Source of the DNA: Urbifossiella limnaea
Lineage (GTDB): Bacteria; Planctomycetota; Planctomycetia; Gemmatales; Gemmataceae
DNA length: 64,000 nt
NCBI RefSeq assembly: GCF_007747215.1
Contig: NZ_CP036273.1
Coordinates: forward strand, 1,054,001-1,118,000
Reading direction: 5' to 3'
Numbering within the stretch: position 1 is the first letter of the stretch; the number at the start of each line of letters is the position of its first letter. The notes below the pieces were generated by a model, which was not told where the DNA came from, did not search any database, and was given only the letters and a program-made list of their open reading frames with translations. Shown here in pieces: positions 18,063 to 26,800 of the stretch. A program made the position numbers and the translations under genes.

Positions 18063-18929
18063 TCAGGCACCGACGGGAGCCGGGGCCAGGGCCTCGACCT
18101 TGGCGCGGAGCTCCCGCTGGGCGGCGGCCAGCTCCCGCTCCAGCCGCCCCCGCTCGTCGGCCAGGTACTCGGCGTACGCCTCCACCTTGAACCGCGCCGC
18201 GCGGATCTTCTCGGCCGCCCGCTCGACCGTCCCCGGGCGGGTGTCGGCGTCGAACCCGGCCACCGCCCGGCGGTAGTCGGCGATCAGCCCGGACAGCCCG
18301 TCGGCCACCGCCTCCTTCACGGACCGGTCGCCCTCGGGGGTGCCGGCCGGGACCGGGAAGCGAAGGGTCTGGCCGTTGAGCCGGCCGAGCATCGCCTGGA
18401 CCTTGTCCACGAAGGCGGCGTGCCGCGCCGGGACGAAGTAGACGCCCCCCTGGGGCCGCACCGGGAACAGGTCGGCGTGGCGGTCGAACAGCTTCTGGAT
18501 CACTCTGGTGACATCCGCCCCGCTGCGGGCGTCGATCGCCCGGTCGAGCTCCTCCTGGGCCAGCGTCGCCAGCCCCGGGAGGTCGCACCTCACCGTGCCG
18601 GTCTTCTTGTCGAGGGTGAGCATCGTCTCCAGCTCGTACTCGAACCGGTCGCCGTCGCGGGACTCGGCCGTGAACTGGAAGGTGACGGTGGCGTCGTCCT
18701 CGCCGACCTGGCGGATGATGCGGCGGTCGCACAGCTTCTTGCAGGCGCGGGTGAAGGCGTGGCGGGGGGCCAGCTCGCGGGCGACGCCCTCGTCGAGGCC
18801 GGCGTCGCGGAGGGCGGTGAGCAGCGCCGGGTGGGTGACGGCGACGCCGGCGCACGTCCAGGCGATCACCTCCCCGAGGAGGCGGGTGCCGGCGGGCAGC
18901 GCGGGCGGGGCCGGGCGGGTCGAGGTCAT
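18063..18929 (-). CDS. DUF6744-like protein in the MoxR-VWA operon
   Basis: 288 residues from ATG 18929, chosen for AAGGA 10 bases upstream and for operon spacing. The N-terminal part (GEVIAWTCAGVAVTHPALLTALRDAGLDEG...PRHAFTRACKKLCDRR) suggests a helical, perhaps winged-helix-like, domain. A central beta-rich segment follows (DATVTFQFTAESRDGDRFEYELETMLTLDKKTG), and then a long C-terminal coiled coil (AAEKIRAARFKVEAYAEYLADERGRLERELAAAQRELRAKVEAL). The overall pattern recalls DUF6744, a family of unknown function; I cannot verify this by a search. It lies between the VWA gene (19035) and the 99-aa gene. It may be the substrate or adaptor of the ATPase pair. Confidence 0.6.
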   Translation of the reverse strand: MTSTRPAPPALPAGTRLLGEVIAWTCAGVAVTHPALLTALRDAGLDEGVARELAPRHAFTRACKKLCDRRIIRQVGEDDATVTFQFTAESRDGDRFEYELETMLTLDKKTGTVRCDLPGLATLAQEELDRAIDARSGADVTRVIQKLFDRHADLFPVRPQGGVYFVPARHAAFVDKVQAMLGRLNGQTLRFPVPAGTPEGDRSVKEAVADGLSGLIADYRRAVAGFDADTRPGTVERAAEKIRAARFKVEAYAEYLADERGRLERELAAAQRELRAKVEALAPAPVGA

Positions 18930-19034
18930 GGCGGAGTCCTTTCGTGTTCGGGAGGGAACCGGGAACGTCACCGCCCGCGGACCCGCCCCGGGCGGGCCGG
19001 CGGCGCGTCGCAGGCGGCGGGAAACGACGTGGGG

Positions 19035-20417
19035 TCAGACGGACAGGGCGCGGCCGACGGCCGGGTCGTCTGGCGAGAGGGCGGCGACGCGGTGGCACTC
19101 GTCGCTGACGCGGGCCAGGTCGCCCGGCTCGCTCCCGACGACGAGCGACACCACCCGGGCCTTGACCGCCCGCCGCCAGGCGTTGAACCGGGCGGCCAGG
19201 TCGGCCGGGATCTGGCAGAGGGCGTCGGTGACGAACAGGACGTCGGTCACCCCCGGCGGGGCGCCGAGCCGGCGGTAGTAGTCGGGCAACTCCCGGATCG
19301 GCAGGTCGAGCGACGACCCGCGGCCGAGGAAGGCGGCCACCCAGTCGCACAGCGCCGCCTCGTCCCACCGGCCGGGCGGGAGGGTGAGGAGCCGCTCGCC
19401 GGTGTCCCCGGCGTAGGCGACGAGGCCGCACCACCGCCGCTGCCGGCGGGCGACCCACGCCAGGGCCAGGGCCAGGGCCTTGGCCGTCTCGGCCTTGGCC
19501 CCCTGCATGCTGCCGCTCTCGTCCACGACGGCGATGACCGGCCCCTTTCCCGCCGGCTCGACGGCATGGTGCTCGCGACACAACGCCTGGTGCTCGGCGA
19601 CCCGCCGCAGGGTTTCCAGCTCCAGCTCCGGGACCACGAGCCGCGCCAGCTCGCTCGTCAGCAGCCGGCCGACGTCGCCGCCGGTGGTGACCCCGACGAC
19701 GTCGTCGACCCCGTGGGCGGCCTTCATCCGCTGCCGGGACTGGGCGACCCGGCGGAACCGCCCGGCCAGGTCGCACACCCGCCGCAGGCCCGGGTCCGAG
19801 CGCACCCGCCGGAACAGCGCGGCCACGGCCCCCGGGTCGACCGAGCCGGGACCGCCCGCCCCGAGGCCGAGCCCGAGCGCGGCGGCCGCGTCGAACACCT
19901 CGCCGACCTCCTTCCCGGCCTCGGCCGCGGCCCGGGCGGCGGCCCGAAGAGCAGCCATCTCCCGCCCGGCCGGGTCGGGGTCGGGGCGGGCGGCCTGCTC
20001 GCCCGCCAGCGCCGCGAACTGCTCGGCGAAGGCGACCGCGGCGACGGCCGCGGCCGGGTCGCACAGGGCGGTGGCGGCGTGCAGCGCCCGGTAGTCCGGG
20101 GTGTCGAACAGCTGGGCCAGGAACTCGCGGCGGAGCGGGTCGGCGCAGGCCGGGGCGAGCCGCGGGTCGGGGTCGAAGGCGGCGGCCAGGAAGTCGGCCG
20201 CGGCCGGCTCCCCGGGGTCGAGCCGCCGGAGCCGGTCGCTGTCGGCCAGGAGGTCCCGCCCGCGGCGGAGGGCCCAGGCGTCGAGCTCCAGGGCGGTCGG
20301 GCCGGCGGGTACCCCGGGCGGGCTGTCCGCCGGGGAGAGGAGCGGGGCGTCCGGGCCGGCGGGCGGGGCGTCCTCGCCCCCGAGGTCGAGGAGCCGGAGC
20401 AGGTCGTCGGGGGTCAT
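19035..20417 (-). CDS. ViaA-like VWA-domain partner of the MoxR ATPase
   Basis: 460 residues. The helical N-terminal 285 residues lack a recognised enzyme motif. The C-terminal domain is a von Willebrand A fold with a complete-looking MIDAS start, VIAVVDESGSMQG (D299, S301, S303), then ALALALAWVARRQRRWCGLVAYAGD, GRGSSLDLPIRELP (threonine/serine of the metal site) and TDVLFVTDALCQIP. This arrangement, with the VWA domain last, matches ViaA, the partner of the MoxR-type AAA+ protein RavA in enterobacteria. In such pairs the VWA protein is thought to bring substrates to the ATPase, which remodels them or inserts metals. It is 139 bases downstream of the ATPase gene on the same strand. Confidence 0.85.
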   Translation of the reverse strand: MTPDDLLRLLDLGGEDAPPAGPDAPLLSPADSPPGVPAGPTALELDAWALRRGRDLLADSDRLRRLDPGEPAAADFLAAAFDPDPRLAPACADPLRREFLAQLFDTPDYRALHAATALCDPAAAVAAVAFAEQFAALAGEQAARPDPDPAGREMAALRAAARAAAEAGKEVGEVFDAAAALGLGLGAGGPGSVDPGAVAALFRRVRSDPGLRRVCDLAGRFRRVAQSRQRMKAAHGVDDVVGVTTGGDVGRLLTSELARLVVPELELETLRRVAEHQALCREHHAVEPAGKGPVIAVVDESGSMQGAKAETAKALALALAWVARRQRRWCGLVAYAGDTGERLLTLPPGRWDEAALCDWVAAFLGRGSSLDLPIRELPDYYRRLGAPPGVTDVLFVTDALCQIPADLAARFNAWRRAVKARVVSLVVGSEPGDLARVSDECHRVAALSPDDPAVGRALSV

Positions 20418-20556: not shown

Positions 20557-23500
20557 TCAGATCGCCTCGATGGAGGCGAGCTTGAGCTTCTTGAGCTGGT
20601 CCTTGACGTACGCCCGGGCCCGCTCGACCCGGCCGTTCCCGGTCACCGCCGCCAGCTGCCGCTCGATCTCGGCCAGCTTGGCCGCGGCCGTGGCGGCGCT
20701 CGTGAGGTTGCGGGCGTCGGTCGCGGCGAGCACCTGCTCGGCCTCGACCAGGAGGGCCGTCACTCGCATCCCGGCCGGGTTGGCGACCTTCGCGATCACC
20801 CGGGCGCAGGCCGCCGGCTGCTCCTCCGGGTCGTCCCACAGGACGCTGGCCAGCACCTCCAGGTGCTCGGGCTCGACCCGGTCGGCTCCGCCCAGCCAGG
20901 CGAACGCCCGGGCGACCCCGACCGCCTTCCGCTGCCGCCGGTCGCCCGGCCGCACCCCCTCCTTGGCCAGCTCCCGGAGGACCGTCTCCATCGCGTCCTT
21001 CGCGTCGTCCGCCCACGGGAGGGCGGCCGCCTCCCGGCCGGCCTGGTCGACCTCGGCCGGGGTGACGGTCGCGGCGAGGGCCGGGGTCAGGTCGTCGGCC
21101 CACAGGAGCCGCTTCCGCCCGTCCCCGCTCATCACCGGGCGGACGGCCTTGCGCAGCGCGAACCGGTCGAACACGGCGGCCAGCTCCTTGCCGCCCTCGA
21201 ACGCGCTCGGCCACTCGTTCGACGCGGCCACGCACAGCCGGAGCGGGACCGGGCGGGCGACCCCGCCGCCGTCGTCGAACGTCCGCTCGTTGAGGACGCG
21301 GAGGAGGGTGTTGAGGATGGCGCTCGACGCCTGTTGCCTAAGCCGGGGTATCGCTACCCAGACTCGGCTCCAGAACCGGACGTGCGAGTTTCCCCGCATC
21401 CGGCTCCTCAGTTCCTTGGTACTTGTCACGTACACCTCGCTTGTCTTCCGACGTTTTCCCGTGGTGACAGTGACGGTGAAGTAGCTGGAGGTTGCTCACG
21501 CTGTTCGTCCCGCCCTGCGAGCGGGCCCGCAGATGGTCCACCTCCGTCGCGTCACCGTGCTCGAAGTACAGTCCGCATCGGGGGCACATGCCCCGCTGCC
21601 GCTTCAGCAGCCGGGCGACCCACGGCATCACGCCGGGGTAGTGTCCAAGCCGACCGCTCCAATACAGCCAGTCCCCGTCGAACGGGCTGCGGGCACCTTG
21701 CACCTTCGCGTGCCGCACGATCTTGGTCTGCTCGTGCCGCACCAGGCGCAACCGGAACGTCTGGTTCTCGAACCGCCATCCCTGACCGGGGACGATCCGC
21801 CAGTACCGCTCCGCCGCCCACTTCTTGCCCTTGCCGGGGTGACGGCGATAGCACCAGCGCAGGAGCCGCCGGAACAGCACCGTGCCGATCTTCGAGAAGG
21901 ACCGCTTGCTGTTGGCGATGGAGAAGTAGTTGCTCCACCCCCGGATCAGCGGGTTCAGCGACCCGATCAGGGTGACCTGATGCGCGTCCTGATACCGTTC
22001 GATCACCTCCCGCAGGCGGGCGTAGTGCCGCTTCAACGACTCCTTGCTGGGCCGGATGAGGGTCTTGAACCCGAGCTTCTTCCCGTTGGTGCTACACCCG
22101 GATCGCGACGCCCCCGCGGGGAACTGTCGGACGGTGAACCCCAGGAAGTCGAACCCGGCACGGCCGCCCTCCTCGCGGAGGGTGTGGCCGATCCGGGTCT
22201 TGCTCGGCTTCAACTCCAGCCCCATCTCGCGCAACCACTCGGTCACGATCTGTTGGCACTGCTCGACGACCGCCCGGTCCTTGTGAAGGACCACGAAGTC
22301 GTCGGCGTAGCGGATCACGTCCGGCACCGCGGTGTTGGACCGGGTGCCGGGGATGTGTCGCCGGGGGAATCGTTCCCGGAGCAGGGTCTCCAGACCGTGG
22401 AGCGCGATGTTCGCCAGCAGCGGCGAGATCGCGCCGCCCTGCGGCGTCCCCTCTTCGGTTGGGAAAAGGGTGTCGCCGTCCAGTACGCCCGCCTTGAGCC
22501 ACGCTCGGAGTTGGCGGGCGAGGGCCGGGAAGGTGTTCACCTTCCGCAGCAGGGCCTCGTGGTCGATCCGGTCGAAGCACTTCGCGATGTCGGCGTCGAG
22601 GACGTACTTGTCCTTCCGGCCGACCGCGATGTAGATCGCCATGATCGCGTCCCAGCAGGACCGACCGGGGCGGAACCCGTAGCTGTTGGGCTCGAACCTG
22701 GCTTCCCATTCGGGTTCCAGCGCGAACCGGACCAGGGTCTGCAACGCCCGGTCGTGGATCGTCGGGATGCCCAGCGGGCGGAGTTCGTCGGTCCCCGGCT
22801 TGGGGATGTGAACCCGTCGCACCGGGTCGGCTTCGTCGGACAGGCGTAGCGAAGCCGCCACCGCAAGACGCGCGCGGGGGTGAAGTGACTTGACCCCATC
22901 GACGCCGGCGGTGTTCTTCCCGCCGTTGTCCTGCGTCACCCTTCGGACCGCCAACAGCTTGGCCGCTCGGTTGGCCAGCAAGAGCTTTTGGAGCTTGCGA
23001 ACAGAACTCGTGTCGCCTCGGGTCGAGGCTCGGTAGATCCGCTTTTGGAGCTTGAAGACGTCCCGCTCGATCTGGGACCAGGGGAGCGTCTCCCACCCAT
23101 CCATCGGACTCTCGTCCGTGGTCATGGTGTCTGAACTCGTACTCACAGCCCTACCTCCCAAGGAACCGTGCCCACGTCAGCATGTCCCCGGGCTTTCCCC
23201 GGGGCGTTCGCTTCTTGGGCAATCCCACCCGGCCGCGACATGCGGTTGACACCTGCTCCGGCACGCGCCGGAGAGTTGCGGTCGGGTTACCTCGTTCCTC
23301 ATTCCGGTGTTGCGCTGGACGACGGGCCTTGCTATTCGCCGGGGTACTTGAGGATGCGAACCGGATCGGTAAGGAACCCGTCCGGCGGTGTGGCTCCGTA
23401 TTCAAGCGGGCCACCTGTTCCCCATGCCCTTTTGGGCCAAGCCGATAACCCGAGTAGGCTTGTTGACGATGACGGCGATTCGGACGCAAGTTCGTGTTCC

Positions 23501-24090
23501 TACCCATGTCCAGCCGAGCTTGATGGGATTCCCGGTCGGATTCCGGGTTACCACCGTTCAGGCCCGCTTCAGGGATTGATGGTCAGTCGCTACCCTGGGG
23601 CCTGTGCTTCACCTCTCGCATCTGAGGGGCGGGAGTCTCACCCGCACCGGAACGAAGTTGTCGTGACCGCTTGGTCACGCCGTCGAACCCCGACTGCTCA
23701 CGCAGCCGTTTCCGACGAACGAGTCGCACTGAAGATCTCGTCGAGGAAGCACACGTCGGCCTCGGGGAGGCGGCCGGTGGTCACGCGGACGAACCGGTCC
23801 TCCTTCAGGCCGGCGAGCGACACCGGGCCGAATAGCTCGTCCGGCTGGGTGAACTTGGTCAGCAGGGCGGTGAACCGGCGCCCGTCCAGCCACCGGGCGA
23901 CGGCGTCGAGGAGCAGGCTCTTGGCGGTCCCGGGGGGGCCGACGAGGAGCACGTGCTCGCGGGCGACGAGGGCGGTGAGGACGAGGTCGACCTCGTCGTC
24001 CCGCTCGATGAGCGCGGCGGCCAGCCCGGCGCGGGCGGCGAGGAACTTGTCTCGCACCGGGGTGCGGGACGGCGGGCGGACCAGCTTCAT
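20557..24090 (-). CDS. RavA-like MoxR AAA+ ATPase, gene split by a group II intron
   Basis: The coding parts are 23730-24090 and 20557-21332 on the minus strand. Joined they give 378 residues in one frame. Exon 1 starts at ATG 24090 (GGAGG upstream) and holds Walker A GPPGTAKS at residues 51-58, TKFTQPDELFGP, GRLPEAD and Walker B VCFLDEIF at 113-120. After splicing the next residues are KASSAILNTLL, the invariant MoxR continuation, then VAASNEWP (sensor 1) and a C-terminal helical domain. The closest described relative is RavA. Splicing of the intron (21333-23729) is required for an active ATPase, as the unspliced frame stops a few codons into the intron. First gene of the operon running to 15129. 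Confidence 0.88.
21333..23729 (-). mobile_element. Group II intron inserted in the moxR gene
   Basis: 2397 bases. The 5' end is GTGCGACTCG (the GUGYG signature, starting at 23729) and the 3' end is ...GGCAAC (the AY signature, ending at 21333). Domain V is clear just before the end: GAGCCGGATGCGGGG, AAAC, then TCGCACGTCCGGTTC; domain VI follows. About 580 bases of ribozyme domain I-III sequence precede the maturase gene. Joining the flanking exons gives GAC GAG ATC TTC A|AG GCG, that is DEIFKA, exactly the conserved MoxR sequence, which fixes both splice sites. The element is in the sense orientation of the host gene, so it can be removed from the mRNA. Confidence 0.93.
21338..23146 (-). CDS. 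ltrA: Group II intron reverse transcriptase/maturase with HNH endonuclease domain
   Basis: About 602 residues from GTG 23146, preceded by GGAGGT. It has the RT palm motifs (IPTIHDRALQTLVRFALEPEWEARFEPNSYGFRPGRS, DADIAKCFDRIDH, TPQGGAISPLLANIALHGL, and the catalytic VIRYADDFVVL), a maturase X domain (LIRGWSNYFS... RRLLRWCYRRHP), and a C-terminal HNH nuclease with paired cysteines (MCPRCGLYFEHGDATEVDHL, LLHRHCHHGKTS). These act in splicing and in retrohoming of the intron. The frame stays open through domain V and VI and stops only 5 bases before the intron end, so the last 30 or so residues are encoded by catalytic RNA sequence and may have no protein role. Confidence 0.92.
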   Translation of the reverse strand: MSTSSDTMTTDESPMDGWETLPWSQIERDVFKLQKRIYRASTRGDTSSVRKLQKLLLANRAAKLLAVRRVTQDNGGKNTAGVDGVKSLHPRARLAVAASLRLSDEADPVRRVHIPKPGTDELRPLGIPTIHDRALQTLVRFALEPEWEARFEPNSYGFRPGRSCWDAIMAIYIAVGRKDKYVLDADIAKCFDRIDHEALLRKVNTFPALARQLRAWLKAGVLDGDTLFPTEEGTPQGGAISPLLANIALHGLETLLRERFPRRHIPGTRSNTAVPDVIRYADDFVVLHKDRAVVEQCQQIVTEWLREMGLELKPSKTRIGHTLREEGGRAGFDFLGFTVRQFPAGASRSGCSTNGKKLGFKTLIRPSKESLKRHYARLREVIERYQDAHQVTLIGSLNPLIRGWSNYFSIANSKRSFSKIGTVLFRRLLRWCYRRHPGKGKKWAAERYWRIVPGQGWRFENQTFRLRLVRHEQTKIVRHAKVQGARSPFDGDWLYWSGRLGHYPGVMPWVARLLKRQRGMCPRCGLYFEHGDATEVDHLRARSQGGTNSVSNLQLLHRHCHHGKTSEDKRGVRDKYQGTEEPDAGKLARPVLEPSLGSDTPA

Positions 24091-24942: not shown

Positions 24943-26800
24943 TCCTTAACGAAGCGTGATCTCAGCCGCGTTGATTGGTCTGCTTCTCAAAATGCTTGAA
25001 ATCCTCGGCCGTTTCCAGGGTTTGTGGGAGTAGCTGCTTCCCCTTCGCCCGGAATCCACCGAGGAGTTCAAGTGAAGCCCATCTTCCGCTCGTGGTTCCG
25101 CTCCCGCAAGTCCCGGATCGAGCGCCGACTCGACACGACACGCGACACCGCCACCCACCGCCCCGTGCTCTCGGCTCGCCCCCTCGACTACGACGTGTCG
25201 CGCCGCGACCGGGCCATCGCCCACGGCGGCATCGGGCTCATCCACACCCTCGCCCGGGAGGTCGGGCTACCCCGGGCCATCGACGACCGCCTGCACCTGC
25301 TCAAGGTGCACCTCCCCTACCACGAGTCCGACCACGTCCTCAACATCGCCTACAACGCGCTGTGCCACGGGACCTGCCTCCAGGACATCGACCTGCGGCG
25401 CAACGACGACGCCTTCCTCGACGCCCTCGGGGCGCGACGCATCCCGGACCCGACCACCGCCGGCGACTTCTGCCGACGCTTCACGGCCGCGGACCTCGAC
25501 ACGCTCCAGGACGCCATCGACGTAGCCCGACGGAACGTCTGGGCCGAGCAGCCCGCGTCGTTCTTCGACCGGGCCACGCTCGACATGGACGGCACGCTCG
25601 TCGCGACCACCGGGGCCTGCAAGGCCGGCATGGACATCGCCTACGACGGCACGTGGGGCTACCACCCCCTCGTCGTGACCCTGGCCGAGACCGGCGAGGT
25701 GCTGCGGCTGGTGAACCGGCCCGGCAACCGGCCCTCGCACGAGGGGGCCGCCGGCCAGGTCGATCGAGCCATTCTGCTCTGCCTGCGGGCCGGCTTCCGC
25801 CGCATCGTCCTCCGCGGCGACACCGACTTCTCGCAGACCGAGCACCTCGACCGCTGGCACGCCCTCCCGTGGGTCCGCTTCGTCTTCGGCTACGACGCCC
25901 GGCCCAACCTCCGTGCGGAAGCCGAGGACGTGCCGGCTTCCCAGTGGAAGCCGTTGCGTCGCCCGCCGTGCTACGACGTGAAGACGCGGCCCCGCACACG
26001 GCCCGAGGCCGTGAAGGATCGCATCGTCCGCGAGCGTGGCTTCGAGGTCTTACGGCTCAAGTCCGAGGAGGTCGCCGAGTTCGACTACCAGCCGACCGCG
26101 TGTGCCAACACCTTCCGCATGGTCGTGGTCCGCAAGCACATCTCGCGTGAGAAGGGGGAGCAGGTGCTGTTCCCCGAGGTGCGGTACTTCTTCTACCTCA
26201 CCAACGACCGGGACCTCACCGCCGCGGAGGTGGTGTTCGAGGCCAACGCCCGGTGCGACCAGGAGAACCTGCTGGCCCAGTTGCACGGCGGCACGCACGC
26301 CCTCGCCGCGCCGGTGGACGCCCTGGTCAGCAACGGGGCGTGGATGGTGATGACGGCCCTGGCGTGGACGTTGAAGGCGTGGTGGGCGTTGCTGCTGCCG
26401 GAGTCGCCGGGCCGGTGGCAGGAGCACCACCGGGCGGAGAAGATGCGCGTGCTGCGGATGGAGTTCAGGACGTTCGTGAACGCCTTCGTGACGATCCCGT
26501 GTCAGGTGCTCCAGACCAGCCGTCGCGTGGTGTTGCGACTGCTGGGCTGGAACCCGTACCTGATGACGTTCTTCCGCCTGGTGACACGGCTGCGTCAGTG
26601 AAGGTTCGTCATCGAAGTCGGGATCCGGATGTCCCGATCCGTGCGCACGCCGAGAGCGACACGCAGGAAGGAGAAGCGGGCGGATGACGTGAGAATCGCG
26701 TGGCGAGGCGGAACCAAGAGGGCTCCGCACGGTGAGGGTGTCGCTTCATCGAAGCGCGATCGACTCCGCAACAGACGGCCCAGGTCTCGCTTGTTTAAGG
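24943..26800 (+). mobile_element. IS1380-family insertion sequence
   Basis: The element, about 1858 bp, carries one transposase gene. Ends are imperfect inverted repeats: TCCTTAACGAAGCG at the left and CGCTTGTTTAAGGA at the right. CTAG lies outside each end (24939-24942 and 26801-26804), consistent with a 4-bp target duplication; as ACTAGT is palindromic at both borders the exact limits may be off by one or two bases. It inserted opposite in direction to the host operon. The 200 bases after the transposase stop show no further gene. Confidence 0.85.
25072..26601 (+). CDS. IS1380-family DDE transposase
   Basis: 509 residues from the GTG at 25072, which follows GAGGAGTTCAA. The family signature is present: the DDE catalytic core includes TLDMDGTLVATTG (first aspartate), RGDTDFSQ (second aspartate, about residue 250) and ARCDQENLLAQL (glutamate, about residue 405). 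Length and spacing are normal for the family, and no frame break is seen, so the enzyme is probably active. It mobilises the element that splits the gene at 24555-26936. Confidence 0.9.
   Translation: MKPIFRSWFRSRKSRIERRLDTTRDTATHRPVLSARPLDYDVSRRDRAIAHGGIGLIHTLAREVGLPRAIDDRLHLLKVHLPYHESDHVLNIAYNALCHGTCLQDIDLRRNDDAFLDALGARRIPDPTTAGDFCRRFTAADLDTLQDAIDVARRNVWAEQPASFFDRATLDMDGTLVATTGACKAGMDIAYDGTWGYHPLVVTLAETGEVLRLVNRPGNRPSHEGAAGQVDRAILLCLRAGFRRIVLRGDTDFSQTEHLDRWHALPWVRFVFGYDARPNLRAEAEDVPASQWKPLRRPPCYDVKTRPRTRPEAVKDRIVRERGFEVLRLKSEEVAEFDYQPTACANTFRMVVVRKHISREKGEQVLFPEVRYFFYLTNDRDLTAAEVVFEANARCDQENLLAQLHGGTHALAAPVDALVSNGAWMVMTALAWTLKAWWALLLPESPGRWQEHHRAEKMRVLRMEFRTFVNAFVTIPCQVLQTSRRVVLRLLGWNPYLMTFFRLVTRLRQ

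Follow-up and report, generated by a model that had tools for sequence, protein, structure and literature searches.

A 2,397-nt group II intron on the minus strand (21333-23729) interrupts the gene for a bpMoxR-type ATPase (24090-20557) in the 64,000-nt stretch of the Urbifossiella limnaea genome analysed here (the window). The explanation that we consider probable is that a chloroplast-like (CL) group IIB retroelement intron retrohomed into one of the four MoxR-vWA modules of this genome and splices there. Its RNA would recognise the exon through EBS2, directed at the codons of the Walker B Asp-Glu pair, together with EBS1 and EBS3, and its own maturase would assist excision and thereby restore the MoxR frame; the effect on the host would be nearly neutral, three intact paralogous modules remaining. 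The EBS1 stem-loop of domain I appears to have been duplicated, with hairpin 1 serving the present MoxR site and hairpin 2 being left over from a former target specificity or else providing an alternative to the present one. This second EBS1-type stem-loop, where relatives have one, is the novel element.

The interrupted MoxR gene and its intron

The intron interrupts the Lys codon of LDEIFK between its first and second bases, four codons past the Walker B Asp. Joining the two exons (Table 1) gives a single 378-codon frame with LDEIFKASSAILNTLL, and in the unspliced reading exon 1 runs into a stop a few codons inside the intron (directly after DEIFSATRSSETAA). The joined protein matches PF20030 (bpMoxR) at 183.9 bits (cut-off 27; E = 2.5e-54) and also AAA_5, both exons are open, and Walker A, Walker B and the sensor region are all intact; the PF20030 match and the intact Walker motifs place the protein in bpMoxR. 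With GPPGTAKS its P-loop conforms to the GXXXTAKS pattern known from beta-propeller MoxR systems.

Nine MoxR sequences from paralogs and other genomes are gapless over the junction when aligned, and at the intron-free site of the nearest copy, in genome G002 (TTCCTCGACGAGGTCTTCAAGGCGTCGAGCGCGATC), the DNA is almost identical to that of the spliced window, with a few bases different. On these two grounds the ends of the intron, 5' GTGCGAC and 3' GGCAAC, are exact. The paralogs and the copies in other genomes are continuous across the junction. The reading, in the initial annotation, of a group II intron in MoxR beside Walker B, removal of which restores the frame, stands, as do the GTGCG start, the AC end and the clear domain V. 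It had also put the intron within the catalytic motif, which is right in that the insertion adjoins Walker B, but the junction falls outside the Asp-Glu pair.

The last 76 nt of the intron match Rfam RF00029 at 54.9 bits (gathering score 40). A domain V with the catalytic triad, a domain VI and the 5' GUGYG and 3' AY termini mark the element as a group II intron, and its domain V is close to those of the plastid ndhA/ndhB introns. None of the Rfam D1 families matched in the intron; the EBS1, EBS2 and EBS3 positions and the hairpins were located in domain I. The intron-encoded maturase has RVT_N, RVT_1, GIIM and HNH domains and the active-site motif YADD, and it matches TIGR04416 at 326 bits (cut-off 300); reverse transcriptase (RT), X and endonuclease domains are thus all intact, as in an active retroelement. 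It is mostly 50-57% identical to proteins of cyanobacteria and of one Hymenobacter plasmid, and its best relative of solved structure is 6me0, the IIB maturase of Thermosynechococcus elongatus. Among 391 other genomes of the phylum no close relative (E <= 1e-100) was found, and viral contigs yielded no relatives of the maturase. The pairing of EBS2 at 5/5 positions and a site within coding sequence argue against group IIC. Judged by its sequence, the intron looks like a CL group IIB intron, the CL class being taken from its nearest relatives.

Table 1 Features of the interrupted gene, its intron and the adjoining module (positions in the window)
Feature	Position	Strand	Basis
Exon 1, bpMoxR-type ATPase	23730..24090	-	Start codon, Walker A GPPGTAKS, LDEIF; PF20030 on joined protein
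IBS2 GACGA	23738..23742	-	Inside codons of Walker B Asp-Glu pair
IBS1 TCTTCA	23730..23735	-	Pairing with EBS1
Group II intron, 2397 nt	21333..23729	-	Starts GTGCGAC, ends GGCAAC; Rfam, frame joining, alignment
EBS2 TCGTC	23465..23469	-	IBS2 GACGA paired 5/5; covariation
EBS1 hairpin 1, GTGGC CCG CTTGAATA CGG A GCCAC	23390..23414	-	Folding, relatives' hairpin form
EBS1 of hairpin 1, TGAATA	23399-23404	-	Pairs IBS1 at 5/6
EBS1-type hairpin 2, GCCGGA CGG GTTCCTTA CCG A TCCGGT	23360..23386	-	Folding, relatives' hairpin form
Loop of hairpin 2, TCCTTA	23370-23375	-	Pairs IBS1 at only 2/6
EBS3, intron T396	23334..23334	-	Pairs +1 A
Intron-encoded RT/maturase with HNH endonuclease, 595 aa	21338..23125	-	Profile matches; ORF through domain V into VI
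Domains V and VI	21333..21408	-	Rfam RF00029 match
Likely branch-point A	21339	-	Inferred from position only
Exon 2, MoxR	20557..21332	-	KASSAILNTLL ... stop; frame joining
IBS3, +1 base A	21332..21332	-	Pairing with EBS3
vWA partner gene (ViaA-like), next in module	19035..20417	-	ViaA similarity only
DUF6744 gene, third in module	18063..18971	-	Profile match, gene order

The window intron is the single full copy in its own genome, where no further one was found. A second, related group II intron is present at C1:2070582-2074800 (L058 12544-16801), outside any recognised gene; an intact MoxR paralog module lies a few kb upstream of it. A serine recombinase gene (L058 13142-15187, minus strand) has inserted into its RT ORF, leaving RT pieces within C1:2070582-2074679. 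Two more RT copies (C1:1000594-1001764 and C1:4662008-4663178), 37% identical to the query and accompanied by sub-threshold domain V matches, apparently form a second intron family of two copies.

Exon recognition and the two EBS1-type hairpins

Twenty-three introns of the lineage were mapped to their ends, and intron columns complementary to each intron's own exons were sought by covariation. In 21 of the 23 introns the EBS2 columns are complementary to exon positions -13 to -9, with four or all five of the bases paired. EBS1 consists of six bases that pair with exon positions -6 to -1 and lie in a hairpin of fixed form (an outer stem, 3 bp, an 8-nt loop, 3 bp and a bulged A); in the ten relatives having the canonical hairpin it pairs at 5-6 of 6 positions. 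The EBS3 column is complementary to 3' exon base +1 in 15 of 18 introns. The window intron shows the group IIB pattern throughout, with EBS1 pairing at 5/6 (the single mismatch being at exon position -5), EBS2 at 5/5 and EBS3 at 1/1. The probability of such pairing by chance is 0.001 for EBS2 at 5/5 and 0.005 for EBS1 at 5/6 or better.

The introns of T. elongatus likewise have an EBS1 of 6, an EBS2 of 5 and an EBS3 of 1 nt, and most of their copies lie at sites with at most one mismatch, suggesting retrohoming (Mohr 2010, PMC2882425). Because the window intron has the IIB pairing pattern, these same lengths (PMC2882425) and no more than one mismatch per element, it most likely entered the MoxR site by retrohoming and is predicted to be able to splice there. 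Its resemblance to the TeI4 introns of that species (IIB; TeI4h structure 6me0), which share the EBS lengths (PMC2882425), extends to the relationship of the maturases; unlike them, it occurs only once in its genome, within a gene, and bears a pair of EBS1-type hairpins. With the cyanobacterial plasmid introns that encode HNH maturases (for example in Trichormus, Acaryochloris, Gloeothece and Fischerella; maturases 50-57% identical) it has in common the GTGCGAYTCGTT start, the form of the EBS1 hairpin and in-frame residence in a gene, but its host is a planctomycete and not a cyanobacterium, and its EBS1 hairpin appears duplicated.

In an alignment with nine relatives the 28 nt made up of hairpin 1 and its spacer form a clean insertion. 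The one hairpin that the relatives possess falls opposite hairpin 2, although hairpin 1 is the one that matches the exon. A first alignment had placed the EBS1 of the window intron in hairpin 2; the exon pairing failed there, and from folding it emerged that the hairpin aligned by MAFFT was the other of the two. When a strict hairpin template was applied to 34 other intron 5' regions, one hairpin was found in 14, none in 20 and two in 0; since this template misses the EBS1 hairpin in those 20 relatives, the single-copy count rests on the other 14 and on the alignment.

These observations are most simply accounted for by a tandem duplication of the hairpin; one copy would then have adapted to the MoxR site, and the other would have kept an older specificity or been left free. 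The hairpins share only about half of their sequence, and it is from their form and place that the duplication is read. Such low identity, in a region of 61% G+C, might also be expected if hairpin 2 were a GC-rich stem-loop that arose by chance, with neither ancestry nor function; this alternative concerns only the duplication. We consider this unlikely, given that the hairpins are adjacent and alike in detailed form, that the 28-nt segment is lacking in relatives, and that the hairpin of the relatives corresponds to hairpin 2; in shuffled sequence of the same composition, moreover, such a hairpin arises per 280 nt at P of about 0.02.

With duplication as the preferred account, the extra EBS1-type hairpin points to a target specificity that is either additional to the present one or a former one. 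That both stem-loops work, hairpin 1 for MoxR and hairpin 2 for a target like GACGA-NN-TAAGGA, seems doubtful; no site of this kind with fewer than two mismatches was present in the stretches scanned. At the Walker B sites of two uninterrupted MoxR paralogs hairpin 2 forms 4 and 5 of 6 pairs, and the better match (5/6 with one G-U, at L060 9668) is only a lead, because its chance probability is roughly 0.07, about one in fourteen by a hand estimate. Among open-licence papers we found none on duplicated EBS1 hairpins.

The host module and the effect of the insertion

The interrupted gene leads a module in which it is followed by a vWA gene and a DUF6744 gene. The vWA partner gave no Pfam match. 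In the GXXXTAKS variant of the P-loop and the adjoining vWA gene the module resembles the MoxR-vWA beta-propeller ternary systems (bpMoxR, PF20030). The MoxR-vWA-DUF6744 order recurs in three more modules of the genome, each with an intact MoxR, which makes four MoxR-vWA modules in total. An IS1380 family transposase gene lies upstream of the interrupted module (25024-26601, plus strand).

In genome G006, from a related genus, a MoxR copy (L052 7177-9150) is broken just behind DEVFKASSAILNT by an IS66-like transposase (named from its ORF), within a few codons of the position that the intron occupies in the window. It was considered as a case of the same intron at the same site and rejected, the insertion being IS66-like and giving no Rfam match; the closeness of the two sites is probably coincidence.

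The dN of the interrupted MoxR to the other copies is 0.22-0.29, about twice that among the others (0.05-0.16), at similar pS, and pN is lower than pS in both of its exons. The elevated dN is compatible with relaxed constraint, and also with an older copy that has diverged. Loss of the interrupted MoxR may be borne because three intact modules remain, and for the same reason the effect of the intron on its host is probably close to neutral.

A less favourable reading is that the intron splices poorly and that this MoxR copy is redundant and decaying, so that the insertion is tolerated. The three intact paralogs agree with it, as do the raised dN, which would also fit a poorly expressed gene, and the broken MoxR copy of another genus with its insertion near the same place. 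Decay is harder to reconcile with two open exons that retain Walker A, Walker B and the sensor region, with pN below pS in both, and with an intact maturase and three intact exon-intron pairings; the divergence, besides, may be older than the intron. We regard decay as a lesser but real possibility.

The initial annotation had held that splicing controls the production of the ATPase and perhaps of the whole operon. For conditional splicing as such a control point, acting on the operon through polarity, speak the leading position of MoxR in a conserved gene order and the fact that its product requires splicing. However, the case is a single occurrence, with no intron in any other MoxR copy found, and related introns occupy many unrelated genes. 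With three intact modules and a dN about doubled there is no sign of regulation, and we hold a control point to be very improbable. Splicing would be needed for the product of the interrupted MoxR; a regulatory role is not supported. The reading that we prefer remains that of an intron that splices with little effect on its host.

Residence of related introns inside genes

In bacteria, housekeeping genes are not the usual residence of group II introns (PMC4424553), and the statement of the initial annotation that most lie outside genes or in other mobile elements is true in general in this sense. CL introns in housekeeping genes have already been reported, above all in cyanobacteria (PMC4424553). 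As in those cyanobacterial genes, expression of a conserved gene would need splicing here (PMC4424553); unlike them, the host gene in the window has three intact paralogs.

When the flanks are spliced, 17 of the 23 mapped introns leave an uninterrupted frame through the junction in a recognisable or annotated protein; in three of the 17 (L084, L086 and L088) the 3' end is shifted by one base from the Rfam end. The host proteins include ParA, ThyX, dUTPase, UmuC, coupling ATPases and the RT of another intron, and Pfam recognises the joined ThyX, dUTPase, UmuC, coupling ATPases, TnpB, ParA and Tn3 transposase. Residence in genes is common in the lineage of the window intron.

Several junctions fall in well-known motifs, namely Walker A of ParA, YRGE of dUTPase and GFRPGR of the RT of another intron. 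The conservation ranks of the insertion sites are 0.069 for MoxR, 0.015 for ParA, 0.134 for dUTPase, 0.415 for UmuC and 0.045 for the RT, with a combined Fisher p of 0.004 for conserved segments over the five host proteins (0.009 without MoxR); ThyX (one usable homolog) and TnpB and Tn3 (no usable set) were excluded, and 6-residue windows give weaker ranks. A tendency of the lineage toward conserved motifs is suggestive only, five host proteins being too few to settle it. The result is of interest because Swithers et al., working mostly with organelle introns, found that group II introns show no preference for conserved sites (PMC2814812).

Some relatives are found in more complex arrangements. 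The Microcoleaceae cyanobacterium MO_207.B10 (L073) carries three group II introns in a span of 9 kb. Two of them share a single thyX gene, the third interrupts motif 3 of a dUTPase gene, and all frames are restored on joining. On a plasmid of Calothrix sp. NIES-4105 (L088 1398-4372) a related intron lies in the YGFRPGR motif of the RT of another group II intron, a twintron-like arrangement that is also seen in the annotation of L210. In Elainella saxicola (L074 5785-5835) a related intron ends directly before an apparent 3' half of tRNA-Gly(TCC), which is followed by five tRNA genes in a row; no 5' half was found in the vicinity. The chloroplast trnG-UCC likewise contains a group II intron.

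Residence in MoxR is a clean non-cyanobacterial addition to the CL introns known from genes. If both hairpins work, an EBS1 hairpin that is duplicated and then diverges would provide a way for an intron to be retargeted without losing the ability to splice at its current site, and the duplicated hairpin, if functional, would be a testable route for the retargeting of group II introns.
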